NCBI GenBank assembly: GCA_019261985.1
Contig: JAFAQY010000013.1
Span: 1 to 64,000, forward strand
Reading direction: 5' to 3'
Origin: Bryobacterales bacterium
GTDB lineage: Bacteria; Acidobacteriota; Terriglobia; Bryobacterales; Bryobacteraceae
DNA: 64,000 nucleotides
Shown here piece after piece: positions 40,810-54,912 of the stretch; the first letter of the stretch is position 1; every line of letters begins with the position of its first letter. The notes under the pieces were generated by a model. The model saw nothing but the letters and a program-made list of their open reading frames with translations. It searched no databases and had not been told where the DNA came from. A program made the translations under genes and the position numbers.

Positions 40810-42108
40810 TTACCACGCCACCATCGACTCCTCAAAAAGGCGGCTGAGATCTTCTGTCCCCGCCGGCCGCGGCGAAAGTTTTGTTACGCGGTGCTGTGGA
40901 AGTGTGCCTTGCACCAGTGTGGGGATATCCGATGAGCAGTAGCCGATCTCCCGCAAGCCGTTGGGCGTTTTCAGCCGTTCCATGAACCAGACAATGCGGT
41001 CGGAAAGAATATTCCCCGCGTCTTCGCAACGCGCGCGGGAGACATCAGCGCCTAAAGCCTCCGCGGCTTGCAAATGGCGCTCGGGCCGCGCGGACGCGGT
41101 GAAGCGGAAGACCGCGGGAGCATTTAGAATGACCGAAAAACCGTGGGGGATCAGCGGGTGATCCACTGCATAACCGGGCGCGCGGTAGCCGTTGACATGG
41201 CCCGAAACCGGATACGACATCCCGTGCGGCAAATGCACGCCCGCGTTCCCGAACCCTACTCCGGCGTACGATGCCGCGAGGATCATGTTGGCGCGAGCCT
41301 CATCGTCGGATGGATCCTCTACCGCCCGCACAATATATTTGGCAACCATTCGCAGCGCCTGCAGCGACCAGATATCGCTGATCGGGTTCGATCCCTGATA
41401 TGCGGGACGCAACGCGGGGCGCTCCGGCCGCGGCCTTTCGGAAAACGGCAGCGCGGTGTAGGACTCGATGGCGTGGCTTAGAATATCGAGACCGCTCGAC
41501 GCGGCGACCTGCGGCGGCATAGTGCGCGTATTCTCGGGATCGAGATAGCCGAGCGTAGGCTTCAGGCGGCGGCTGGCGATGCCGGTCTTGGCGTGCATCC
41601 GGCTGAGGTCGAAAATGCTGACGCCCGTGGTTTCACTGCCGGTCCCGGCCGTGGTTGGAATGGCCAACAGCGGCTTCAGAGGACCGGGAACCGGAATGCC
41701 CTTCCCGATGGGCGGATTGACGTAATCGAGAAATTCCTCGGGCGGATGGGTCGTGTACAGGTTGACCGCCTTAGCCGTATCGATGGTTGAGCCTCCGCCG
41801 AGGGCGACAAACGCGTCATAGCGCCCCCGCTCGGAGCCTTGCCGCGCGAACGCGATGGCATCCAGGAACGACTCGTCGGTGGGTTCGACGCGGACCCGGT
41901 CGTAAACGCAATACGGAATGCGGCTCGCATCGAGCGATTCGAAAGCGACGTGGGCGGCGGGGGTGGTTTTCACCACGGGGTCGGTGATGACAAGCACATT
42001 GCGCGCGCCGGCGTCCGCGAGGTCCATGCCGAGTTCGCGGGTGACTCCCGCGCCGAAGCGGATGTTCGAGACGGCCATTTCAAAAGCGAACTCTTGTTTT
42101 TCGGACAT
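40810..42108 (-). CDS. Iron-containing alcohol dehydrogenase, hydroxyacid-oxoacid transhydrogenase-like
   Basis: The 432-aa cytoplasmic protein belongs to the Fe-dependent (type III) dehydrogenases. Cofactor and metal motifs include FVALGGGSTIDTAKAVNLYT, LLAIPTTAGTGSETTGVSIF, SSGLDILSHAIESY, and HLPHGMSYPVSGHVNGYRAP. The long insertion with RPALRPAYQGSNPISDIWSL and the overall length resemble ADHFE1-type hydroxyacid-oxoacid transhydrogenase (EC 1.1.99.24), which couples 4-hydroxybutyrate oxidation to 2-oxoglutarate reduction. The assignment to that subfamily is moderate. The start ATG 42108 follows the lactonase stop by one base, so the two are translationally coupled. Confidence 0.87.
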   Translation of the reverse strand: MSEKQEFAFEMAVSNIRFGAGVTRELGMDLADAGARNVLVITDPVVKTTPAAHVAFESLDASRIPYCVYDRVRVEPTDESFLDAIAFARQGSERGRYDAFVALGGGSTIDTAKAVNLYTTHPPEEFLDYVNPPIGKGIPVPGPLKPLLAIPTTAGTGSETTGVSIFDLSRMHAKTGIASRRLKPTLGYLDPENTRTMPPQVAASSGLDILSHAIESYTALPFSERPRPERPALRPAYQGSNPISDIWSLQALRMVAKYIVRAVEDPSDDEARANMILAASYAGVGFGNAGVHLPHGMSYPVSGHVNGYRAPGYAVDHPLIPHGFSVILNAPAVFRFTASARPERHLQAAEALGADVSRARCEDAGNILSDRIVWFMERLKTPNGLREIGYCSSDIPTLVQGTLPQHRVTKLSPRPAGTEDLSRLFEESMVAW

Positions 42109-42109
42109 G

Positions 42110-42958
42110 TTACTCGTAAAAAGCGGGGGATTTCTTCAATTTCGCAAATTGAATGATATCGTGTTGGATCCACAGCTCGGCTTTCTTCTCTTTGAGCAGC
42201 GCCTCGACTTTGGCCTTGGATGCGGCTTCCGTCTGTGGATCGCCGAGGTTGGCGAAGGGAGTGAAGTCTTTCAGCGTGCGCTCGGACGGGTAATGGTAAA
42301 GATCGCCGCTGAGCAGCACAGGCCCGGTCTTCGCGAGATTGACCAATAGCGACTGGTGGCCCGGCGTGTGACCCGGCGTTGAAACGATGATGACGGAGCC
42401 GTCGCCGAAGACATCGTAGTCGCCGTCGAGAATCACGGTCTTGCTGTTTTTGAGCGCGGCGAAACGCGCGTTGTTCGGGTTCTCTTTCTCCGGCGGCTTT
42501 TGCGGAAACATGAAATCGCGCTCCTTCCGCTGGACCAGCCACGTGGAAGCGGCAAATTCATTGCCGTTAGCCGAGTGGTCGTAGTGATTATGCGATAGCG
42601 CGAGATACGTGATGTCGGAAGGCTGGTAGCCGATTTCCGCCAGCTGGCTGTTAAGTGTTTTGGTGACGGTCGCCCGCGCTTCGGTTGTGCCGCCCGGCTT
42701 GATGAGTTCGTCGGGGATCACTCCCGAATCCCACAGCAGCGTTCCACGAGGGTTCACGATCAGGTATGCGGCGACGGACATATCGGTGACGGTGATGCCG
42801 CGATCGAGCAGCGGCTGCGGATTGCCGCTCTTGAGATGGCCGCAGTCGAACACATACAGGCGCACGGAGGAAACCGGGGAGGGTTTCTGTGCGTGCGCCG
42901 GATGGAGGAGCGCAAATGGCGCGATCGCAGCTAAGGTGGCGAGAGCTAATTTATACAT
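42110..42958 (-). CDS. Secreted N-acyl homoserine lactonase-like metallo-hydrolase
   Basis: The 282-aa product has a signal peptide (MYKLALATLAAIAPFALLHP, then AHA). A metallo-beta-lactamase fold of the AHL-lactonase type follows: VRLYVFDCGHLKSG at the start, LALSHNHYDHSANG (HxHxDH), IIVSTPGHTPGHQSLLVNL, VLLSGDLYHYP (Asp ligand), and IQHDIIQF at the end (His ligand, as in AiiA-like enzymes). It may open lactone rings, including quorum signals, but activity on AHLs is only inferred. It overlaps the end of the YfhO-like gene by 8 bp and is followed at once by the dehydrogenase. A lactonase beside a hydroxyacid dehydrogenase could supply its substrate. Confidence 0.88.
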   Translation of the reverse strand: MYKLALATLAAIAPFALLHPAHAQKPSPVSSVRLYVFDCGHLKSGNPQPLLDRGITVTDMSVAAYLIVNPRGTLLWDSGVIPDELIKPGGTTEARATVTKTLNSQLAEIGYQPSDITYLALSHNHYDHSANGNEFAASTWLVQRKERDFMFPQKPPEKENPNNARFAALKNSKTVILDGDYDVFGDGSVIIVSTPGHTPGHQSLLVNLAKTGPVLLSGDLYHYPSERTLKDFTPFANLGDPQTEAASKAKVEALLKEKKAELWIQHDIIQFAKLKKSPAFYE

Positions 42959-45275
42959 CCTGGACTCCTGCCGGCCTTGCGAGCCGGCGCTGAAGTATGC
43001 AAGCGGCGATTATCCAGCACGCTAACGAGAGTATAGACAAACCCACGCCGGCGCGGAACCCCGGTAGCGTGAAGCGCATTTCGACTAAAGATTCGCCCGC
43101 GTTGACGGGCAAGCCCATTCCGATCCAGTTGGTTCGATAGATGCGCGCGGGAACGCCGTTCACTGTGGCGGTCCAGCCGGGGTAGTAATTGCTGGGGACT
43201 ACCAGGAACGCGGGCTTATCGGAACGTACTCGGAAGCGAAGCGCATCGTACTGCCGCGGGAGGCGCTCGACCTCGGCTGTTTCGGTGGAATCGCTCAGCG
43301 CAAGAGTTTTATCCGCGGCGACGACCGCAACGCGCCGAAAATCGATGGAGCGGGAACGGACCTGATCGAGAACGGCCTTATCGGAAATGCTTCCCTCCGG
43401 CTGTGTCTCGCCGACCAGGAATTCGCGGTTTTGGAAGCTGGGATTTTGCCATAAGGTCAGGCCGCCCTCATCCCTTACTTGATTCCATCCGGGTAGCTGA
43501 AGCCCGCGCTTCGCGATCACGTATTTGACTCGGAGGAAATCGAAAAACGGCGGCATCGCGGCGGCCGCGCCCGGCGACACCAGGGCCGATGGCAGGCCTT
43601 CGAGCATCCATTCATGCCTCCGCAGCTCGAGCGATCCATGGTAGCCCGCGGTTTCCAAACCCCATAGCGGAGGCGACGAGCCAGTGAGCATGTTCTGTAA
43701 CCGAAACTCGCCAGAGGATTCGTCCGCAGGGGAAACAATCGAAAGAATGCGAAACCGATCCTGGTCTTGCCGCAACCAGCCCGCGAGGCCGTCCAGGTGC
43801 AGCGCGTCTGTTATCGCGACTGTCCGCGCGTAGTTGGCGTGAAAGCGGAGGTAGCCAACATCGGCGAGCAAAAATGCGATGGACGATGCGATGAGGGCGG
43901 CACGCCACTTTCCGCGCACAGCTTGAATGGCGAATAGGGCCACGACGGAAGCGGCCAGAAGAACGCAACATGCAATCAATTCCGGGTGGCGATCCGGCCG
44001 CAGGCGCCAGGCCGCTGCAGCGGCTAACACCACAATGACGATTACGGCGAAGGAGCGGGCCGGGCGCATTTTGGACGCTTTATTCGCGGCGAGGTCAAGC
44101 CCGATCGCCCCCAGGCAGGCGAAACAGAAGCTCGCGAAGAACTGATATCGAAATGGAAAACGCAGGCTGTTAAAGCCGGGCAATCGGAACAAGAGGCCGT
44201 ATACCGGCGTTGAGGCCCCAAGCGAAATCAGTGTCGCAAGCAACCCGCAAATCGACAGGCACCATGCGGGAGGGCCGGCTCGCCGGATGCCCAACAAGCA
44301 AAATAGGGCCATCACGGCGATCAGAGCGCCATCGTAAAAACCCACGGCCGCGGTGACCGCGCTATCGAGCGAATACACGTACGGGAACAAGGGCTGCAGG
44401 AGATCTTTAACCTTGGTGTGGGTGGTGCCGGCTGCATATTCAAAGCTAAGTCCGCCGGCGCGAACGGATTCGCTTTGGTGCTTGAACATTGGAATCACCT
44501 GGATTCCGGCCATGCCGATTCCGAGGACGACGATCAACGCCCAAAGCGAAAAAGTCGCTACTGCTTGGGTCGCAAGGTTTTTGCGGGCTGCGCCGGCGCT
44601 TGCCAGCAGGAAGGCCCATCTTAAGGCCAAATAGCAAACGACGGCCACGAGCGTGACCGCGGCGAAAGTGGGATTGCCGGATATGAACTGCATTCCTATA
44701 ACAATGGGCGCGGCCCAAAACACGCTTGCTAGTTTCTTCCGATGGAAAGAACGCTCGGCCAGCCACATAGCACACGGGAGCAGACAAGCCGCGCGCAACA
44801 GCCCCATGCTTCGCACATAGACGACGCATTGGCTCCCGAACATGAAGGCAATCGCTCCCGCCGTCGCAGCGAAGCTGCGCACTCCGGCTTCGCGCAGAAA
44901 CAAATATGTTCCCAATCCCGTTACGGCGAAGATCAACGCGAGCTCAAGCATGAACGCCGCCGGGGGATTGAACGCCCAGGCGAGCGCCAGCCGAATGGGA
45001 GAGAACTGCGCCTCGCCATCCGCGGTGACGGGGTGACCCAAACCGGTTTCATGCGCCCACTGCGGTATTACGCCCGTACGCAGGGCATGACCCAGGAAAT
45101 CCGCAAACGGATAGTACTCAACCGCGGTATCGCCGCCGAACAACAACTGACCGCGAAGGAGCGGCACAATGCCGAAGCTCAATCCAAGTAAAACGATTAT
45201 TATTGGGGGCCCCATCGTCATCCACCGGACGCGGGTGGATGATGCGCGGGAAATAGTGGCAGGGGCGGCCATCAT
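42951..45275 (-). CDS. YfhO-like polytopic membrane protein
   Basis: The 774-aa inner-membrane protein has about 12 hydrophobic segments with a GT-C-like layout and fits the YfhO family. Landmarks are the N-terminal loop LLFGGDTAVEYYPFADFLGH (an acidic YPF region), TGLGHPVTADGEAQFSPIRL, FMFGSQCVVYVRSMGLLRAA and PGFNSLRFPFRYQFFASFCF. The C-terminus is periplasmic-type (PAFLVVPSNYYPGWTATVNG, PVNAGESLVEMRFTLPGFRA). YfhO has been linked to glycosylation of teichoic acids in Bacillus; here it may move a sugar onto a surface polymer, which is inference. It overlaps the first alkaline-phosphatase-type gene by 4 bp (ATGA), so the cluster is translationally linked. Confidence 0.84.
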   Translation of the reverse strand: MMAAPATISRASSTRVRWMTMGPPIIIVLLGLSFGIVPLLRGQLLFGGDTAVEYYPFADFLGHALRTGVIPQWAHETGLGHPVTADGEAQFSPIRLALAWAFNPPAAFMLELALIFAVTGLGTYLFLREAGVRSFAATAGAIAFMFGSQCVVYVRSMGLLRAACLLPCAMWLAERSFHRKKLASVFWAAPIVIGMQFISGNPTFAAVTLVAVVCYLALRWAFLLASAGAARKNLATQAVATFSLWALIVVLGIGMAGIQVIPMFKHQSESVRAGGLSFEYAAGTTHTKVKDLLQPLFPYVYSLDSAVTAAVGFYDGALIAVMALFCLLGIRRAGPPAWCLSICGLLATLISLGASTPVYGLLFRLPGFNSLRFPFRYQFFASFCFACLGAIGLDLAANKASKMRPARSFAVIVIVVLAAAAAWRLRPDRHPELIACCVLLAASVVALFAIQAVRGKWRAALIASSIAFLLADVGYLRFHANYARTVAITDALHLDGLAGWLRQDQDRFRILSIVSPADESSGEFRLQNMLTGSSPPLWGLETAGYHGSLELRRHEWMLEGLPSALVSPGAAAAMPPFFDFLRVKYVIAKRGLQLPGWNQVRDEGGLTLWQNPSFQNREFLVGETQPEGSISDKAVLDQVRSRSIDFRRVAVVAADKTLALSDSTETAEVERLPRQYDALRFRVRSDKPAFLVVPSNYYPGWTATVNGVPARIYRTNWIGMGLPVNAGESLVEMRFTLPGFRAGVGLSILSLACWIIAACILQRRLARPAGVQDV

Positions 45276-47368
45276 TGAACATATCCCAGGGACTTGAGCC
45301 GCTCCGTCGCGGACCGATCGAGCTTATACCCTTGCGAGGCGTGATGCGGAGCGGATGCTGCCCAATCGTCCAGGCGCTTAGAAAGCTCTTGCGCGCGCGG
45401 ATCGCCGGGTTGATACAGATCGTGTTGCTCCTGGGGATCGGAGGTTAAATCGTACAACTCCGGCGGACCGGCGGTCCAGCCGATCAGCTTCAGATTGCCG
45501 GAGAAAATGGCGCGCCGCAGGCCGCCGAAACGTTGATTTCCGAGGCCGACGAGAGGCGATCGCGTGCCGCGGGAGAACACGACTCTACCGGGATCGGCCG
45601 TCGCATGCAGTAAGCTTTTGCCTTGTAGCTCGCGCAGGGGTTCAGCCCCGATTGCTTCCAATACAGTCGGCATCAAATCCACCTGGCTGACCAAATCCTC
45701 GAACTTCGCGGCTTCGTGTTGTCCGGGATACTTGACGATTAATGGAACATGCACCAACTCCTGGTAGACGAAGCCCACGAAATGATCCATCAGATCGTGC
45801 TCGCCAAATGTGTCGCCGTGGTCCGCAGTCACAATTATCAGCGTGTTGTCGTACAATCCGAGCTCCCGTAACCGGTCGAGCAGAGCCTTGATCGCAGAGT
45901 CCTCGGCGGCGATTCCGCCATCGTATTTGCCGATGAGGTACTGGCTTTCGGCAGGCCGGAGGGTGCGCTTGGCGGCATCCACTTGTAGCTTTATATCGTG
46001 CAACGCCGAGGCGTCGAGGGGCGCGTCGGTTGTGCTCGAAAATTGCCGGTTGTAGGGCGGGGCCGGAACATACGGCGTGTGCGCGTCCATGTAATTGGCG
46101 AACAAAAAGAACGGAACGCCGCTGGACTTCGCCGCATCGAGCAGGTCGATTGCGCGCCGATTGATATCGGCGGCGATGCGGTGGGGGCGATCGAAGGCGC
46201 CGGTATCGAAAATATGGGCGAGCAGCCGTTTGGCGCGCTCCCTGAGGTAAAAGGGGCGATCCGCGCTCGAAAGAGTGACCGGCCTTCGCAAGTCCGGAAT
46301 GGCGAAGCCTTTCGTCAGCCCGGTCCATGCAGCGAGGAAACCGCTGTTCGCGGCGGTTTCGATGCTCCAGTATCCGCGGGAGCGCAAAACCTCGGCCAGC
46401 GTCCGGTACTGTGTTCCCACCGGCAGCGCAATGGGATTCGGGACAGTGGAATTGACGGCTCCGTTCCAATCCGGATAGACTCCAGTGAACATGGTTGCAT
46501 GTGTTGCCAGAGTGAAATCGGAAGCGGCGGTAGCTCGCGTATAGAGGGTGGCCTGGCGGGCGAACTGGCGCAGGTTCGGAGTGGTGTCGCGCGAATAGCC
46601 ATACAGCGATAGATGGTCCGCGCGCACCGTGTCCATCACGATAAGAACGACATTCGGCGTGGACGCGCGGGCCGGAGAAAGATTGACGTTAACAGGCGCG
46701 TCGCGCTGCGCTACTGCTACGGCGGCCGAGAAGAGCGCGATTGCTCCAACCACGGCGATTGCTTGGGAAACCAAAGTGGCCGGCCGGTTCTTCCGAATGT
46801 AGGCCACTGCGGCCGCAACCGCCACGATGAAGCACAGCAGCAAAATCGAAAGCCCGGTCTTTTTTAGCGAGGAGTCCTGAGGAGTTAATAGTTCGCGGCT
46901 CAACGACGGCACGCCCAACAGTAAAAGCGAAACCGTCCAGGGACCGGCGAGGAAATTCCAGCGCTTGGCTGGTTCGGCAGAAACGAGCGCTGCCACGAAT
47001 ACAACGATTAATACGGCCGCGACGGCTAACACGATCTGCTCCGAGCGAGCCAGCGGCCAAGCGGAGATGAGATTCGCGGCAAATGCGGCCGAGACTGTCA
47101 GGGCCGCAAAGATTCGATGCGTGTCCGGCGTCTTGCGCGCGTTGAGCAGCAGGCCGCCTAAGGCGCCGGCAACCATTCCGGCGCACGCGTAGGCGGCGAA
47201 CAGCATGCCCAGCAAAGGCCATTGCCACGGCAGGACTTCCATTTCCCGAAAGCGCCACAGTTGAATGCCGATCGACAGCGCGGATTCCACCACGCCGTAG
47301 ACGAGCCAAGCCACGCAGCCCCAGGCCGCGCCTGTTAGGATGCCGGCCTTAAATCGACTTCCCTGCAT
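45272..47368 (-). CDS. Membrane-anchored alkaline-phosphatase-superfamily enzyme, copy 1
   Basis: The 698-aa protein has six or seven N-terminal membrane segments (to about 220) and a periplasmic-type sulfatase/phosphatase-fold domain. Metal and active-site blocks are VVLIVMDTVRADHLSLYGYS (Asp near 246), then SDFTLATHATMFTG with Thr near 286, ANYMDAHTPYVP, IIVTADHGDTFGEHDLMDHF and VHVPLIVKYPG. In sulfatases the residue at that Thr is Cys or Ser (CxPxR); here the motif is TLATH, more like phosphoethanolamine or phosphoglycerol transferases, which use Thr. I therefore prefer a transferase or phosphodiesterase role. The C-terminus is LKSLGYVQ, as in the two paralogues. ATG 47368 overlaps the upstream stop. 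Confidence 0.85.
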   Translation of the reverse strand: MQGSRFKAGILTGAAWGCVAWLVYGVVESALSIGIQLWRFREMEVLPWQWPLLGMLFAAYACAGMVAGALGGLLLNARKTPDTHRIFAALTVSAAFAANLISAWPLARSEQIVLAVAAVLIVVFVAALVSAEPAKRWNFLAGPWTVSLLLLGVPSLSRELLTPQDSSLKKTGLSILLLCFIVAVAAAVAYIRKNRPATLVSQAIAVVGAIALFSAAVAVAQRDAPVNVNLSPARASTPNVVLIVMDTVRADHLSLYGYSRDTTPNLRQFARQATLYTRATAASDFTLATHATMFTGVYPDWNGAVNSTVPNPIALPVGTQYRTLAEVLRSRGYWSIETAANSGFLAAWTGLTKGFAIPDLRRPVTLSSADRPFYLRERAKRLLAHIFDTGAFDRPHRIAADINRRAIDLLDAAKSSGVPFFLFANYMDAHTPYVPAPPYNRQFSSTTDAPLDASALHDIKLQVDAAKRTLRPAESQYLIGKYDGGIAAEDSAIKALLDRLRELGLYDNTLIIVTADHGDTFGEHDLMDHFVGFVYQELVHVPLIVKYPGQHEAAKFEDLVSQVDLMPTVLEAIGAEPLRELQGKSLLHATADPGRVVFSRGTRSPLVGLGNQRFGGLRRAIFSGNLKLIGWTAGPPELYDLTSDPQEQHDLYQPGDPRAQELSKRLDDWAASAPHHASQGYKLDRSATERLKSLGYVQ

Positions 47369-49512
47369 CACTGAACATACCCAAGCGATTTTAAGCTCTC
47401 CAGGGTGGATTTATCCAGCGCTTTCGGCTTGGCGCTCTCGCGAGGGGCGGAGGCAAACCAGGTTTCGAGACTCTCTAACAACTGCTGTGCGCGAGGGTTG
47501 CCCGGCGTGTAAAGGTTATTTCGCTCATCCGGGTCGGCCTCTAAATTGTATAGCTCAGGAGCGCCGGCGGGACTATCGATCAGCTTCATCCGGTCGTCAA
47601 AAATGGCTCGCCGCCAGCCGTGGAACTTGGTGTCCCGCTCTACGCCCAGGGATTCCGCGAAAACAGGGTGGGCCAGCATATTGTTTAACCTTTGCACACT
47701 CCTGCCCGGGGATGCGACCGGCATAGGGATGCCTGCACAATCCAAGATTGTCGGCATGATATCAACCTGGCTAACCAGAAGATCGTTCCGAGCCGCGGTC
47801 TGCTGCTTCGGATATTTGATCAGCAGCGGCACATGCAGATGCGTTTCATACACCGATCCGACGCGGTGGCCCAACACTCCATGTTCGACAAACCCTTCGC
47901 CGTGATCGGAGGTAACCACGATCATTGTGTTGTCAAAGAGACCTAACCGGCGCAAGTCTTCAAATAAGCTGCCCAGAGCGGCATCTTCGGCTGCGATTCC
48001 TTCGTCATAATGCGACATCAAGAAGAGCGCTTCCCGCGGCCGCAGCGTGCGACGTCCCGAATTTACCTGATACGAGAGTATGTCCAGCCTACGCTCGTTC
48101 CGAGCAACAGATGGAGCCGGCGCCGAATTCTCTGCGAAACGGTTCTCAAACGGAGGGCCGGGCACATATGGCGAATGCGCATCCATATAATTCAGGAACA
48201 AAAAGAACGGCTTTTCATTTGCCTTAGCGCGAGCCAGAAGCTTTTGGCCGCTTGCCGTAATATCCGTCGCCTTCCTGTAATTACGCTCAAAGAACGTAGA
48301 ATTAATCCCCGGCAAATCCAAAACATGTGGCAATAAATAGAATCGGTCATCGCTGCGGCCGTGCTGCACGGGCCGGGTCCAGTCGGATACTCCGAAGCCC
48401 TTTGTGAGTCCAGTCCACGGCCCGAGGAAGGCGTAATTCGCGGCTGATTCGGCCGTCCAATACCCGTGCGACCGAAGGACCTCAGCAAGGGTGGTGTGTC
48501 TTGGGGCTAGAGGCTGCAAACCAGGCTTGGAAGTGCGGGAATAGCGGGCGCCATGCCAGGCGGGGTAAAGCCCTGTGAACATCGACGCATGCGCCGGCAG
48601 GGTGAAATCCGATGTCGCCACGGCGTGGGCATATACGGTTGCGCCGCGAGCGAATTCGCGCAGGTTGGGCGTGGTATCTCGTTCGTAACCGTATACAGAT
48701 AGATGATCGGCGCGTACGGTGTCGAGGGTGATCAGCAGAATATTCGGCTGTCCGGAAGATGCTGAAGGGGAATCGGGGAGGTTCGAGCTTGTGCCCCTGA
48801 TCTCGGAAACGGACGCCAGCGCGCCGAACACGACACTCGCGGTAATCGCGGCGGCGAGCGGGCTGGAAGCCAGTCCTGGCCGCAGACGGCCCTTGAGAGA
48901 TGCTCCCGCTAGGATTGTTATAAGCACAATCAAGGGCAATCCAATTCTCGCCCAAGTCGAGTGGTTTGGACCACGTATGTCCCTATCGATCCATGGAAAT
49001 ATCAGCAGCGAAAGACTGACTGTAAACGGGCCGCTGAATGGCAGAAATACTCGTTTCCAAGGCGGCCACCTCAATGCTGCGGCGAACGCGAAAGCGAGCG
49101 CCGCCCCTATGATCAGCGCGAAGTATTCAGACTCGGGAAGCGTCCAAAGCCGGACTAAATTAGCGCTGAAAACGAGGATTAAGGGAACGACCGCGCAAAA
49201 CGAATAATGCGCGACGCCATGATCGCGCAGCCCTACGAGCCAAAGAAACAAGCGGGCAGCAGCTCCCAACAAGATGCCCGCTGAGGCGTAGGCGGTGGCC
49301 AGCTTTACGATCGCCAGCCACTGCCAGCTCATGATCGTCATATCGGGGTTCTGAAACAATTCAGGCCCGATGAAAAAACACAGCTCAACGGCAAAAAAAG
49401 CGATCCACGCCGAGCAACTGTAAACGGCTGTCGACAGAAGGTTCCGGGATAATCCGGACATTGGCAGTCGCCGGCTAAGTGTCTGGTTCAGTACTTCACC
49501 GCCATCGTTCAC
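47368..49512 (-). CDS. Membrane-anchored alkaline-phosphatase-superfamily enzyme, copy 2
   Basis: The 714-aa paralogue of copies 1 and 3 starts at GTG 49512 with GAGG upstream (ATG 49461 is an alternative). About six membrane segments precede the catalytic domain: ILLITLDTVRADHLSVYGYE (Asp near 264), SDFTLPAHASMFTG (Thr near 304), LNYMDAHSPYVPG, MIVVTSDHGEGFVEHGVLGH and LHVPLLIKYPKQ. As in the others, Thr replaces the sulfatase Cys/Ser and His replaces the following Arg, so formylglycine formation is impossible. It ends LKSLGYVQ. The stop codon overlaps the next start (TGATG), so translation is coupled. Acceptor and donor are unknown. Confidence 0.85.
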   Translation of the reverse strand: MNDGGEVLNQTLSRRLPMSGLSRNLLSTAVYSCSAWIAFFAVELCFFIGPELFQNPDMTIMSWQWLAIVKLATAYASAGILLGAAARLFLWLVGLRDHGVAHYSFCAVVPLILVFSANLVRLWTLPESEYFALIIGAALAFAFAAALRWPPWKRVFLPFSGPFTVSLSLLIFPWIDRDIRGPNHSTWARIGLPLIVLITILAGASLKGRLRPGLASSPLAAAITASVVFGALASVSEIRGTSSNLPDSPSASSGQPNILLITLDTVRADHLSVYGYERDTTPNLREFARGATVYAHAVATSDFTLPAHASMFTGLYPAWHGARYSRTSKPGLQPLAPRHTTLAEVLRSHGYWTAESAANYAFLGPWTGLTKGFGVSDWTRPVQHGRSDDRFYLLPHVLDLPGINSTFFERNYRKATDITASGQKLLARAKANEKPFFLFLNYMDAHSPYVPGPPFENRFAENSAPAPSVARNERRLDILSYQVNSGRRTLRPREALFLMSHYDEGIAAEDAALGSLFEDLRRLGLFDNTMIVVTSDHGEGFVEHGVLGHRVGSVYETHLHVPLLIKYPKQQTAARNDLLVSQVDIMPTILDCAGIPMPVASPGRSVQRLNNMLAHPVFAESLGVERDTKFHGWRRAIFDDRMKLIDSPAGAPELYNLEADPDERNNLYTPGNPRAQQLLESLETWFASAPRESAKPKALDKSTLESLKSLGYVQ

Positions 49513-49529
49513 CCGGTGTCCTCGGCAGT

Positions 49530-51116
49530 CTAATGCGATCTATCGCCCGGCTGCCGGTAGACGAGATTGGCTCGAACCGCAGGCGCCTGCTCTTCACGCG
49601 AAACCCACCGGCAAAGGCGAACGGGCATAACATCGGCGTCCGCCACCCAGATGGACCGGTCCCGAAAATGGCCGGCTAGCCGGGCGTCACTCACCGGGTC
49701 CAGTTCCCTGGCCCAGACGATGCTCTGGCGGTCGATATTCGCGGAATTAAACACCCATTCGATGTGAAAATTATGATTCGGGCTGTAGTGGACAAAAACC
49801 AGATGGCGGCCGCCTTCCTTCGTGAGTTGTTCTTCAATTTTCTCCCGCTGGTCCGAATATTGAAATAAACGTAGTCCTCCCACTCCTATAATTCCGGCTT
49901 TGATATTGAGCAATATTTCAGCGATTACAACTGCGATCACAGCCGCATGCCTTAGCCGCGGGTGAATGGCCTTCCAATTCCACAATGCGCGCAGTCCTAT
50001 AAAAATAAGCGCCCACCAGGCAGCAGTGAACGGCGCCAAATAGTGCGCCAAGAAAAACCAATAGAACAACTGACCCGCCGCAAGAGCGACTCCTATCGCG
50101 ATGAGCTGGAATGCGCCGCTCCGGCGAGCCAGCGGCAGAAACAGCACGCCTAGCAGGAGCGGAAGACCGCCGTAAAAGCGCCAGAACGCCTTTATCCGTT
50201 GCTTCAGCGGCGTCCACGTGGTCCACTGCCATTCATAAACTTTGCGTAATTCCGGATAGCGAAACGACGGCTCGGGGGCCGGCCGCTTCGATGACAGCCC
50301 TCTTGGAACACCGTACAAATGCATGCTGAGTTGAACGGGCATCAGCAGCGCGTTACCGGTAACACGGTAGTTGTAGTAGCCCTGTATGGCCACGCTCGCC
50401 AGGGCTATCGAGGCGACCGGCAGCACAATCGATATGATCTTTTCGCGAATTGGAATGGATGCCGCCCGCAGGAGCCAGACCGCGACGAATATGCCTACCG
50501 CCCCGCTGAAGAACAAACCCTCATAAGGGCGGGTCATCATTACCACCGCCAGCCCCAACGCAAGCACAACGGCCCATGCGGCCCGGCTGGTTCGCTTCAG
50601 ACGTGGCAACGCGCCGAGCGCCATGGCGCCTCCGATGGCGGCAACGCTCCCGCCCATGTAGCTATTCATCCAAAAACTGAAAATTCCAAACTGGAAGACA
50701 CACACCAACCCGCCGACAAGCGCCCATTGCGTTTCCAGCCAACCTCCCAACATCCAACAAACAGCACCGCACATTAACCCCGTGCTGGCCCACACTCCCC
50801 ACCACGGGTTTCCCGCAATGACTTGGCCGAGGGCCAATACGAATCCCTGTCCAGGCGAATAGTGGGATGTGTATGTGGGCTGATGGAGCACGTAGATCGT
50901 CTCGAAATGCTGCCAGAACGCGTGCGCGGGATTCGTGAGCCGCCCAGACGCGAAGGTATCGCCTATCAACAAATGATTGAATTCATCGGCGACCATTGGC
51001 CTAGGGATGGGATAGCGGTGTAAAAGGGCCGCTCGACCGATTAGGCACAGCCCTGTTACCAGAAGAACCGACAACCACAAGCCCGAGGCTAATGCACGAT
51101 AAAGGCTCATCAGCAT
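49530..51116 (-). CDS. GT-C-like polytopic membrane protein of unknown function
   Basis: The 528-aa protein has roughly 11 hydrophobic segments and an early periplasmic loop with MVADEFNHLLIGDTFASGRL, then TSHYSPGQGFVLALGQVI. Acidic D-E in the first loop is the usual catalytic feature of GT-C glycosyltransferases, here DEFNH. The C-terminal soluble part (EGGRHLVFVHYSPNHNFHIE, NSANIDRQSIVWARELDPVS) is seen in acidobacterial homologues. It probably uses a polyprenyl-linked donor, by fold analogy. It lies 17 bp upstream of AP copy 2 in the same direction. Two direct repeats precede its start (51123-51160). Confidence 0.75.
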   Translation of the reverse strand: MLMSLYRALASGLWLSVLLVTGLCLIGRAALLHRYPIPRPMVADEFNHLLIGDTFASGRLTNPAHAFWQHFETIYVLHQPTYTSHYSPGQGFVLALGQVIAGNPWWGVWASTGLMCGAVCWMLGGWLETQWALVGGLVCVFQFGIFSFWMNSYMGGSVAAIGGAMALGALPRLKRTSRAAWAVVLALGLAVVMMTRPYEGLFFSGAVGIFVAVWLLRAASIPIREKIISIVLPVASIALASVAIQGYYNYRVTGNALLMPVQLSMHLYGVPRGLSSKRPAPEPSFRYPELRKVYEWQWTTWTPLKQRIKAFWRFYGGLPLLLGVLFLPLARRSGAFQLIAIGVALAAGQLFYWFFLAHYLAPFTAAWWALIFIGLRALWNWKAIHPRLRHAAVIAVVIAEILLNIKAGIIGVGGLRLFQYSDQREKIEEQLTKEGGRHLVFVHYSPNHNFHIEWVFNSANIDRQSIVWARELDPVSDARLAGHFRDRSIWVADADVMPVRLCRWVSREEQAPAVRANLVYRQPGDRSH

Positions 51117-51122
51117 TTCAGT

Positions 51123-51160
51123 AATTATCCTGATATCAGGCAGAAATTATCCTGATATCA
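51123..51160 (-). promoter_or_regulatory. Tandem 16-bp repeats upstream of the GT-C-like gene
   Basis: AATTATCCTGATATCA occurs at 51123-51138 and 51145-51160, a 22-bp period, that is two helical turns. It lies 7-44 bp upstream of the start codon. The core TGATATCA is palindromic. The spacing fits two binding sites on one DNA face. Confidence 0.45.
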
Positions 51161-51288
51161 AGGCGGAATTACAGGCTGTAAATCGGTGGGTTAGCAAATG
51201 ATGGGCCAGACGTTGTAGTGGCGGTGCGCTTCTGAATACACTGTGGGATTCTGCTAATGCTTCGGATTCTGTCCGACTGTTTGAGATT

Positions 51289-51329
51289 GGCGGGCTGAAG
51301 CCCGCCGCAGGCTTAAGCCTGCCCCACAG
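51289..51329 (+). repeat. Two-hairpin intergenic repeat, copy 4
   Basis: GGCGGGCTGAAGCCCGCC, then GCAGGCTTAAGCCTGC and CCCAC, just beyond the stop of AP copy 3. The second hairpin keeps pairing with a changed loop. Confidence 0.85.
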
Positions 51330-51342
51330 CTGGTTTAATTTG

Positions 51343-53442
51343 TTACTGCACGTAGCCTAGGGATTTTAGGCGCTCTACGGAGGCGGGGTCTAGCTTCGTA
51401 GCCGGGGCTTGGCCGCGTGGTCTTGCGGCTAGCCAGGCCTCGAGTTTATTCCGGAGCTCCACTGCTTCTGGATTGGCGGGCGAATAGAGATTCTGCTTCT
51501 CCTCGGGGTCGGAAGCCAGGTTGTAGAGTTCGAATGCACCGTTAGGCGACGCAATCAGCTTTAGCGATCCGGAAAGGATGGCTCTGCGGCTTTGCAATCC
51601 GGCAGTCTCGGCGAAAACGTCCCGCGCGCCGGACGGAGCGGGCGCGAGCAAGCTACGGCCCTCCAGCGGAGCCGGCGGCGGGATCCGGGCAACATCGAGA
51701 ATCGTTGGCATCAGATCCACTTGACTTACGAGCTGATCGGACCGGCGCGCGGCATGCTGGGCAGGATACTTGACGATCAGCGGCACGAAAATCAGCTCCT
51801 GGTTCAGATTGTTCATCTTGTGCTCCAACAAACCGCGCTCGCCGAATGCTTCTCCGTGATCCGCCGTAATGATGACGACCGTATTCTCGAACAACCCGAG
51901 CGCCCTTAATTTACCGAGCAAGCCGTTAATTGCGGAATCAATCTCCGCAATTCCACCGTCGTATTGCGAAATAAGGCGCTCTTTTTCCGAGGATTCGAGC
52001 ATACGCTTGCCGGAATTAACTTCGTCCTTGATCCTCCTGTATGACGCGGCGCGCAAGGGCGGGCCGCAGGCCGGGAAGAGCGTGTCGAAGGGAGCATCGG
52101 GAATATAAGCGGCGTGCGCGTCCATGTAGTTAACAAAAAGAAAAAAATTTGAGCTGCGGCTGGCAGCGGCTTCGTCCAGCATCGCGCCCGCGCATTGATT
52201 GATGTCCGACGCGGTGCGCGTGTACCGGACAAAATAGTCCGTGTTGGTGGCCGAGCCCAAAACGCGAATAGCCGCTTCTCGCAAGTAGTAGGGGTGGCGG
52301 CGGTCCGCGATGGCGTTACCTTGCGTCGAAAGGGGCACGGCCCGGCGCCAATCGGTTATGGCAAAGCCTTTCGCGAAGCCCGCCCGCGGGCCAAGCATCG
52401 CGTAGTTGGCGACGCATTCGGTGGTCCAGTATCCGTTCGAGCGCAGCAATTCAGTAAGCGTCGTGATGTTTCCCGGAAGCACGTCCGGCCAGACTACACC
52501 TTGCCAATCCGGATACCGCCCCGAGAAGATCGACGCGTGGGTGGGAAAAGTATAATCCGATGTAGCCGCAACATAGGTATAGAGAGTGGCCGCGGCGGCG
52601 AATTCGCGCAGCTTCGGAGTTGTGTCGCGGGAGTAGCCGTAAAGAGACGTGTGGTCGGCGCGCACGGTGTCCATGGTGACTAAGACGACATTCGGTTTAC
52701 CGGTTGCCGCCGGGGATTTGGGGGCCTCGGCGTGAAATACCGGAGCGCGGCTCCTAAGAGCAGCAGCCGTAACAAACATCAATAGCACCGCAGCGGCTGC
52801 AACAGCATGACTCAGCGCGGTTGGCGTCCTGCTGCCTTGCATACGCCGCTTGAGATGGGCCGCGCAGGCGATCGCGAAGGCGGCTAGCAAGGCAAGACCC
52901 GTTTTTGACGCCGCTGAATAACTTACGCCGAGCGCCTCCCGGCTGATCCAAGGAATAGACAAGACGAGCAAACTCGCAGCGAAGGGGCTGGTTAGCCCCC
53001 GCATTTGTTTATAGAGGCGTTCGGAAAACAGCGATGCGACCAGAGCAAGCGCGAGAAGTACCGCTAAGGCCAGCGCTAATTGTTCGGATCGCGCCAGCGG
53101 CCAAGCCAGGGCGAGATTGACGACGAACGCCAATAGCAATGTCAGGCAGGCGGAAGCTTCGACGTCGCCCGGCCATTTCGCAAAACCCGCAAATGCGAGG
53201 ACGGCTCCGGCGGCTGCCCCGCAGACTAATCCCGCAACCGCGTAGACCAAAAATACTTTCGCGATCAATGGCCACTGCCACGCCAACAGAACCATTTCGG
53301 GGTTGTGAAAAAGCTGAATACCAGCGGAAAGTGTAAGTTCGATGGCGCCGTAGGCGAGCCATGCCGCGCACCCGTATAGCGCCGCGTTCCAGAGGTGTTT
53401 TTTCAAATTTGCATTCTCCCGGGTTTGCGAACCAAACTGCAT
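51343..53442 (-). CDS. Membrane-anchored alkaline-phosphatase-superfamily enzyme, copy 3
   Basis: The 699-aa paralogue starts at ATG 53442. Six or seven membrane segments occupy about residues 15-230, followed by VVLVTMDTVRADHTSLYGYS (Asp near 258), SDYTFPTHASIFSG (Thr near 298), VNYMDAHAAYIPDAPF, VVIITADHGEAFGERGLLEH and IFVPLIVKYPAQ. The nucleophile position is again Thr, and the tail LKSLGYVQ is identical to the other copies. It resembles copy 1 more closely than copy 2 in its membrane part (both contain ALAWPLARSEQ or AWPLARSEQ). It is the first gene of the run, 226 bp upstream of the GT-C-like gene. The product is probably an inner-membrane transferase acting on the periplasmic face. Confidence 0.85.
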   Translation of the reverse strand: MQFGSQTRENANLKKHLWNAALYGCAAWLAYGAIELTLSAGIQLFHNPEMVLLAWQWPLIAKVFLVYAVAGLVCGAAAGAVLAFAGFAKWPGDVEASACLTLLLAFVVNLALAWPLARSEQLALALAVLLALALVASLFSERLYKQMRGLTSPFAASLLVLSIPWISREALGVSYSAASKTGLALLAAFAIACAAHLKRRMQGSRTPTALSHAVAAAAVLLMFVTAAALRSRAPVFHAEAPKSPAATGKPNVVLVTMDTVRADHTSLYGYSRDTTPKLREFAAAATLYTYVAATSDYTFPTHASIFSGRYPDWQGVVWPDVLPGNITTLTELLRSNGYWTTECVANYAMLGPRAGFAKGFAITDWRRAVPLSTQGNAIADRRHPYYLREAAIRVLGSATNTDYFVRYTRTASDINQCAGAMLDEAAASRSSNFFLFVNYMDAHAAYIPDAPFDTLFPACGPPLRAASYRRIKDEVNSGKRMLESSEKERLISQYDGGIAEIDSAINGLLGKLRALGLFENTVVIITADHGEAFGERGLLEHKMNNLNQELIFVPLIVKYPAQHAARRSDQLVSQVDLMPTILDVARIPPPAPLEGRSLLAPAPSGARDVFAETAGLQSRRAILSGSLKLIASPNGAFELYNLASDPEEKQNLYSPANPEAVELRNKLEAWLAARPRGQAPATKLDPASVERLKSLGYVQ

Positions 53443-53544: not shown

Positions 53545-53591
53545 TGGCAGGCGCGGCTGGACTCGAACCAGCGACGCTCAGCTTAGAAGGC
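53545..53591 (-). repeat. Detached 3' half of tRNA-Arg
   Basis: 47 bases from CCA through the T arm to the anticodon loop match the intact tRNA-Arg at 54836-54882, with two visible substitutions. The 5' half is absent. It resembles the distal attachment site left by an element that integrates into a tRNA 3' end. Confidence 0.8.

Positions 53592-54835: not shown

Positions 54836-54912
<77 letters not shown>

Follow-up and report, generated by a model that had tools for sequence, protein, structure and literature searches.

Gene organization of the locus

The window (the whole stretch of DNA that was analysed, 64,000 nucleotides) has three paralogous genes, SULF1, SULF2 and SULF3, which encode membrane proteins with a catalytic domain of the alkaline phosphatase superfamily (Table 1). 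They are located in one run with genes for a GT-C-fold protein and a YfhO-like protein. An earlier note had described these five minus-strand ORFs, and all of them were confirmed; the TLATH, TLPAH and TFPTH motifs and the LKSLGYVQ ending are also present as claimed, together with a DHG metal motif. The SULF proteins are 43-49% identical to each other and match PF00884 with 142-164 bits (cut-off 25; E 3e-41 to 8e-48). They are also above the cut-offs of SGSH_C and PF01663, with weaker matches (40-54 bits for PF01663, cut-off 23). The product of the YfhO-like gene matches the PF09586 profile with 75.9 bits (cut-off 28.5; E 3e-21). The GT-C protein has no Pfam match; its model (pLDDT 89) has a Foldseek probability of 1.00 to oligosaccharyltransferases (PglB, AglB), ALG12, Emb and ArnT.

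Table 1. Genes of the run and predicted nucleophile codons, with positions in the window
Feature	Position	Strand	Description
SULF3	51343..53442	-	699 aa; membrane N-terminus and alkaline-phosphatase-superfamily catalytic domain; motif TFPTH
Thr298 codon of SULF3	52549..52551	-	predicted nucleophile
GT-C-fold membrane protein	49530..51116	-	528 aa; multi-copy family of the lineage; neighbour, not conserved partner
SULF1	47368..49512	-	714 aa; motif TLPAH; modelled with seven TM helices, then S1-sulfatase/PMH-like catalytic domain
Thr304 codon of SULF1	48601..48603	-	predicted nucleophile; position computed from gene start
SULF2	45272..47371	-	699 aa; motif TLATH; start GTG, then ATG at 47368
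Thr287 codon of SULF2	46511..46513	-	predicted nucleophile; position computed from gene start
YfhO-like (PF09586) membrane protein	42951..45275	-	774 aa; neighbour, not conserved partner
Metallo-beta-lactamase-fold protein	42110..42958	-	AHL-lactonase-like, sub-cut-off; 8-base overlap with YfhO gene
Fe-containing alcohol dehydrogenase	40810..42108	-	1 base from metallo-beta-lactamase-fold gene

The gaps between the five genes are -4, -4, +17 and +226 on one strand, which bears out the tight run of the earlier note, but the run does not end at 42951. It continues with a gap of -8 into the metallo-beta-lactamase-fold gene and of +1 into the Fe-alcohol dehydrogenase gene; therefore, a boundary at 42951 is arbitrary and not natural. 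The metallo-beta-lactamase-fold gene is probably in the same transcription unit as the YfhO gene.

The locus also has several non-coding features. Two tandem 22-base units (CAGTAATTATCCTGATATCAGG; 51119-51162, 91% alike) are directly upstream of the GT-C gene and are a possible regulatory site. Two adjoining G+C-rich palindromes (GGCAGGCTTAAGCCTGC and GGCGGGCTTCAGCCCGCC; 51280-51345) lie between SULF3 and the GT-C gene and resemble a dispersed repeat element. A promoter scan returned 8 candidates compared with 6.2 in shuffles, which is no excess. A 43-base copy of the 3' half of tRNA-Arg(TCT), with 42 bases identical, is found at 53549-53591, just upstream of SULF3; the intact tRNA gene (54836-54912) is on the same strand, 1.2 kb upstream of the copy. 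The copy resembles a duplicated attachment site of the sort that a small element leaves behind. A genomic island carrying the SULF trio was considered and rejected; the tRNA-Arg fragment adjoins the cluster, but no additional copy was found in the window beyond its other end.

Active-site residues of the SULF family

Relatives were gathered with a profile built from SULF1-3, and the full-length ones form an alignment of 39 rows (A3). The nucleophile position (Thr304 of SULF1) contains Thr in 38 of the 39 rows and Ser in the other one; among 43 distinct ORFs above 350 bits, the counts are 42 Thr and 1 Ser. Asp264, His308, His446, Asp536, His537 and His549 (SULF1 numbering) are invariant in 39/39. 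The +4 position from the nucleophile, which is Arg in sulfatases, is His in every row, and the residue 12 after the predicted metal ligand His537 is always His549. The stretch after GY is VAN and not G-K-x-H, so the Lys of the latter motif is absent. Looser relatives (Planctomycetota, Myxococcota, Nitrospinota and others) have the same T/S-x-x-x-H, and the C-terminal LK/R-SLGY ending is common throughout the family. The Thr, the +4 His and the LKSLGYVQ ending are thus traits of the SULF family, none of which is specific to this cluster.

The residue at +12 was compared across every ORF of the loci collected up to that point. Among proteins with the DHG motif, it is His in 48 of the 50 proteins of the T/S..H type. 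The Cys..R and Ser..R types carry Lys instead, in 6 of 7 and 4 of 4 proteins, respectively, and the spacing is different in Cys proteins with DNG. The window's own genome has four Cys..Arg sulfatases, which are an internal contrast to the Thr-type SULF proteins. The choline sulfatase SmCS has the metal ligands Asp14, Asp296 and His297 and the nucleophile Cys54, and its site is completed by Lys102 and the pair His201-Lys309, with Lys309 at 12 residues after His297 (PMC5870055). His at +12 also occurs in EptA (His453-His465) and MCR-1 (His251-His263) (PMC7576196).

The SULF family has neither the (C/S)xPxR nucleophile motif of formylglycine (S1) sulfatases (PMC5066984) nor the active-site lysines Lys102 and Lys309 of SmCS, having VAN after GY and His549 at +12. 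Membership among the true sulfatases was ruled out on these residues, which agrees with the earlier statement that the trio are not formylglycine sulfatases. Membership in the alkaline phosphatase superfamily (PF00884) is supported by a profile score above the curated cut-off and by the superfamily fold. The observation of Thr in place of Cys/Ser is sound, but it was already known for the superfamily. The SulfAtlas authors reported in 2016 that 30 of 59 PF00884 seed sequences carry Thr instead of the catalytic Cys/Ser, that formylglycine derived from Thr was never demonstrated, and that the Thr-type TXNXE group is not to be regarded as functional sulfatases without experiment (PMC5066984).

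Structure model and comparison with EptA and LtaS

The AlphaFold model of SULF1 (pLDDT 87.9, pTM 0.88) has long N-terminal helices that fit seven membrane spans. At the threshold applied, hydrophobicity peaks indicate seven for SULF1 and SULF2 and five for SULF3, and the count for the family is approximate. The positive-inside pattern suggests that the catalytic domain is periplasmic. Thr304 is the first residue of the nucleophile helix, where the family has no conserved Cys or Ser that could take its place at the metal centre. The outcome that the earlier note would have counted against a transferase, a different Cys/Ser at the metal centre, thus did not arise. Foldseek and VIA-align match the catalytic part of SULF1 (residues 254-690) to S1 sulfatases and phosphonate monoester hydrolases (PMHs) with Z 35-41. 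The matched region includes the C-terminal sulfatase domain, and the sequence profiles agree with an S1-sulfatase/PMH scaffold. LtaS and EptA are not among the 50 structure matches listed, but these are filled by sulfatases and PMHs, so their absence is uninformative.

The SULF family profile aligns with E. coli EptA in hhalign with a probability of 97.2 (E 3.6e-11) and with EptC at 95.4. In the EptA alignment, Asp264-Thr265 falls on Glu-Thr, His446 on SHG, Asp536-His537 on DHG and His549 on YLHG. Thr304 is opposite the second Thr of CGTAT, either Thr of which could be the nucleophile of the E. coli enzyme. The residues of an EptA-type phosphoethanolamine (PEtN) transferase (E/D, Thr, His, Asp-His and His) are therefore all aligned; however, SULF scores at most 47.5 bits with the EptA/PEtN NCBIfam (cut-off 500) and at most 37.3 bits with that of LtaS (cut-off 970). 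Membership in the EptA or LtaS family was ruled out by these cut-offs. The match of the Thr to LtaS and EptA proposed in the earlier note holds for the active site, which is of the Thr-phosphotransferase type, and does not extend to the scaffold, which is that of S1 sulfatases and PMHs. SULF thus combines a sulfatase/PMH scaffold with a site of the EptA type, and would act in the manner of EptA without being classed in that family.

Paralogue history and gene neighbourhoods

In the tree, the three window paralogues group with the C119 copy in one clade (support 100/97). This clade is nested within another that includes the C5 copy and a copy from the congener G017 (100/100), with its inner branching unsettled. 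C119 and C5 are other contigs of the window's genome, which thus has two more copies outside the window. The end branches among the SULF copies are 0.5-0.8 changes per site; therefore, the copies are old. The divergence of the three copies suggests that they may have different acceptors.

The YfhO and GT-C genes do not adjoin SULF genes in relatives. A search for the window proteins in every related locus found, besides the window copies, one weak YfhO match. Of the 296 other Acidobacteriota genomes, one has the window-type YfhO at E<=1e-25, and the SULF family is present at E<=1e-90 in 18 of the 297 searched. Of 41 near relatives, 26 have PF09586 proteins, which are not beside SULF genes. The one exception is a C-terminal fragment that is encoded on the opposite strand, where the short contig G017:C611 ends. 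The window's genome has eight copies of the GT-C gene, the other seven of which have no SULF gene nearby, and the Fe-alcohol dehydrogenase of the run has different neighbours in six congeners. A five-gene system kept across relatives was ruled out, since the same gene set is not adjacent in them; the YfhO/GT-C/SULF arrangement is local.

Other genes do recur around the family. Clustering of 246 neighbouring proteins from 35 loci found PF01663 phosphodiesterases, often paired, in nine loci and a membrane protein of ~270 aa in seven, both in Acidobacteriota and Nitrospirota. The ~270-aa protein has no NCBIfam match. Its profile matches archaeal MJ0480 (5c8j; E 1.2e-7), a YidC-like protein, and one member of its family matches EMC3_TMCO1 (E 0.004); by this remote similarity, it may be Oxa1/EMC3-like. 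Within the genus it is found in G000, G005 and G010. The same three genomes and G017 have SULF above 400 bits (Fisher p about 0.002, for related genomes and a threshold chosen here). Outside the genus it is common without full-length SULF; therefore, the link is not strict.

The ~270-aa protein at L146 1571-2371 (G000:C58:6573-7358) and its relatives (alignment A2) are beside two alkaline-phosphatase-superfamily phosphodiesterases. On contig C58 of the window's genome, it is found together with a small STM4013-like hydrolase and two phosphodiesterases. This set also includes an XrtA polysaccharide deacetylase (above cut-off), an APS kinase and a protein with a PEP-CTERM-like ending, and contains no full-length SULF gene. 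The protein at L146 9766-10500, near the XrtA-type polysaccharide deacetylase and the APS kinase, ends in TPEPVSILLLGTVLLGVVALARWRLKRHGADYS, a PEP-CTERM-like sorting signal.

A fusion of ATP-sulfurylase and APS kinase is located 4 to 38 bases from SULF tandems in two congeners, G010 and G005 (directly adjoining them at L044 16747-18708 and L045 6251-7561). An APS kinase is also found <=6 kb from a SULF-family enzyme in a further locus. A P-loop protein with a PRSGT motif and no NCBIfam match adjoins SULF on two Nitrospirota contigs (L059 11310-11930 and L072 3071-3685). The loci of SULF relatives include GT-C, GT4, Wzx, initiating sugar transferase and XrtA polysaccharide deacetylase genes. 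The presence of relatives in GT-C, exopolysaccharide or XrtA loci weakly suggests a link to a surface glycan. The recurring set, which consists of two type-I phosphodiesterases, the Oxa1/EMC3-like protein, a Thr-type enzyme and often APS kinase or XrtA exopolysaccharide genes, could tentatively be regarded as an undescribed envelope-polymer modification system with the window trio as its expanded acceptor-specific transferases, although this seems unlikely.

Proposed function

The SULF trio probably act in the cell envelope, either as phosphate-group transferases or as diesterases, and we lean slightly toward Thr-phosphotransferases. The paralogues would be anchored by ~seven N-terminal TM helices bearing a periplasmic catalytic domain. 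In SULF1 numbering, a metal bound by Asp264, Asp536 and His537 would activate Thr304 for attack on a phosphodiester donor, for example a phospholipid head group, with a phospho-Thr intermediate as the result. His446 and His549 may serve the leaving group and the acceptor. EptA provides the parallel for the last step, in which the phospho-substituent would be moved to a glycan or lipid of the envelope rather than released by hydrolysis. The flanking YfhO and GT-C proteins may work on the same surface glycan, as a local arrangement and not as a conserved machine. The sulfatase/PMH scaffold counts against a phosphotransferase, as does the APS kinase near SULF relatives, which is a hint of sulfate chemistry. 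No characterised close homologue of SULF was found, and the literature search found no paper characterising the membrane-bound T-x-P-x-H type.

If water resolves the phospho-Thr instead, the enzymes would be phosphodiesterases or phosphatases that trim or remodel phospho-substituents of envelope polymers or scavenge phosphate. This is possible, though rather doubtful. The T-x-P-x-H..TGLYPxxHG motif, which resembles that of nucleotide pyrophosphatases, is consistent with it, as are the PF01663 score above cut-off, the PF01663 proteins as the commonest recurrent neighbours of the family and the PMHs among the nearest solved structures; however, the seven-helix anchor, the glycan-building neighbours and the EptA-type His set suit transfer better. 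An action on sulfate, either as a Thr-nucleophile sulfatase or as a sulfuryl transferase tied to PAPS supply, is very unlikely. It would explain the S1-sulfatase scaffold, the fused enzyme next to the SULF tandems, which is the only APS kinase found in G010 and G005, and the sulfotransferase-like PRSGT protein of the two Nitrospirota loci. However, Thr cannot yield formylglycine, the Arg at +4 and the Lys at +12 are both replaced by His, and the G-K-x-H Lys is absent. PAPS is also cytosolic while the SULF domain is predicted to be periplasmic, the APS kinases of the window's own genome are on other contigs, and sulfur assimilation uses APS kinase as well.

It is very unlikely indeed that the trio are catalytically spent regulators or scaffolds, as proposed for YejM/LapC. 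YejM has the same fold and Thr, and its essential part is the TM domain (PMC7576196), but the full metal and catalytic set of SULF is invariant in 39 diverged sequences, unlike a decaying site. The earlier note had seen in the five genes a dedicated machine, here one making and decorating a single surface polymer. The gaps on one strand and the GT-C fold of 49530-51116 point in this direction, and the GT-C enzyme that glycosylates lipoteichoic acid in Bacillus and Staphylococcus is YfhO (PMC8035078). Such a machine is nevertheless quite improbable, since the gene order and partners are not found in related loci, the sister SULF genes on C5 and C119 are without YfhO or GT-C, and the overlap chain continues into metabolic genes whose flanks differ in congeners.

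Comparison with known systems

The SULF trio belongs to a known, widely mis-named and poorly characterised kind of enzyme. Residue-level evidence favours reading this group, annotated 'sulfatase' in Acidobacteriota, Nitrospirota, Planctomycetota and Myxococcota, as Thr-dependent phosphate-group enzymes. The re-reading corrects counts of sulfatases that are used as evidence that an organism consumes sulfated polysaccharides, and the recurrent gene neighbourhood could make the function testable.

The S1 sulfatases (SpAS1, SpAS2, SmCS) share with SULF the scaffold including the C-terminal domain (VIA Z 35-41), the PF00884 and SGSH_C matches, the metal Asp/Asp/His and the active-site His446 (His201 in SmCS). 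SULF differs in having Thr for Cys/Ser, His for the +4 Arg, His for Lys309 and an N-terminal membrane domain, and in lacking the G-K-x-H lysine. The phosphonate monoester hydrolases RlPMH and BcPMH are the best Foldseek matches among those listed and carry out phosphodiester chemistry on the shared scaffold; however, they have formylglycine, Lys at +12 and no membrane domain. The nucleotide pyrophosphatases/phosphodiesterases (PF01663) have the T-x-P-x-H nucleophile motif in common with SULF, which is above the cut-off of their profile but scores much more with PF00884 (142-164 compared with 40-54 bits).

LtaS and YejM/LapC have the superfamily fold, the Thr nucleophile and a membrane anchor in common with SULF, although the profile scores are weak (<=37 bits compared with 970 for LtaS, and <=44 compared with 825 for YejM). 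EptA and EptC, like SULF, combine a membrane domain with a catalytic domain. The motif D/E-T-x-R..S..GY.R.T.P aligns, as do the nucleophile Thr and the complete His446/Asp536/His537/His549 set. SULF differs from them in its extra C-terminal sulfatase domain, its about seven TM helices, its scores far under the family cut-offs and the context of its nucleophile, which is TLPSH compared with CGTAT.
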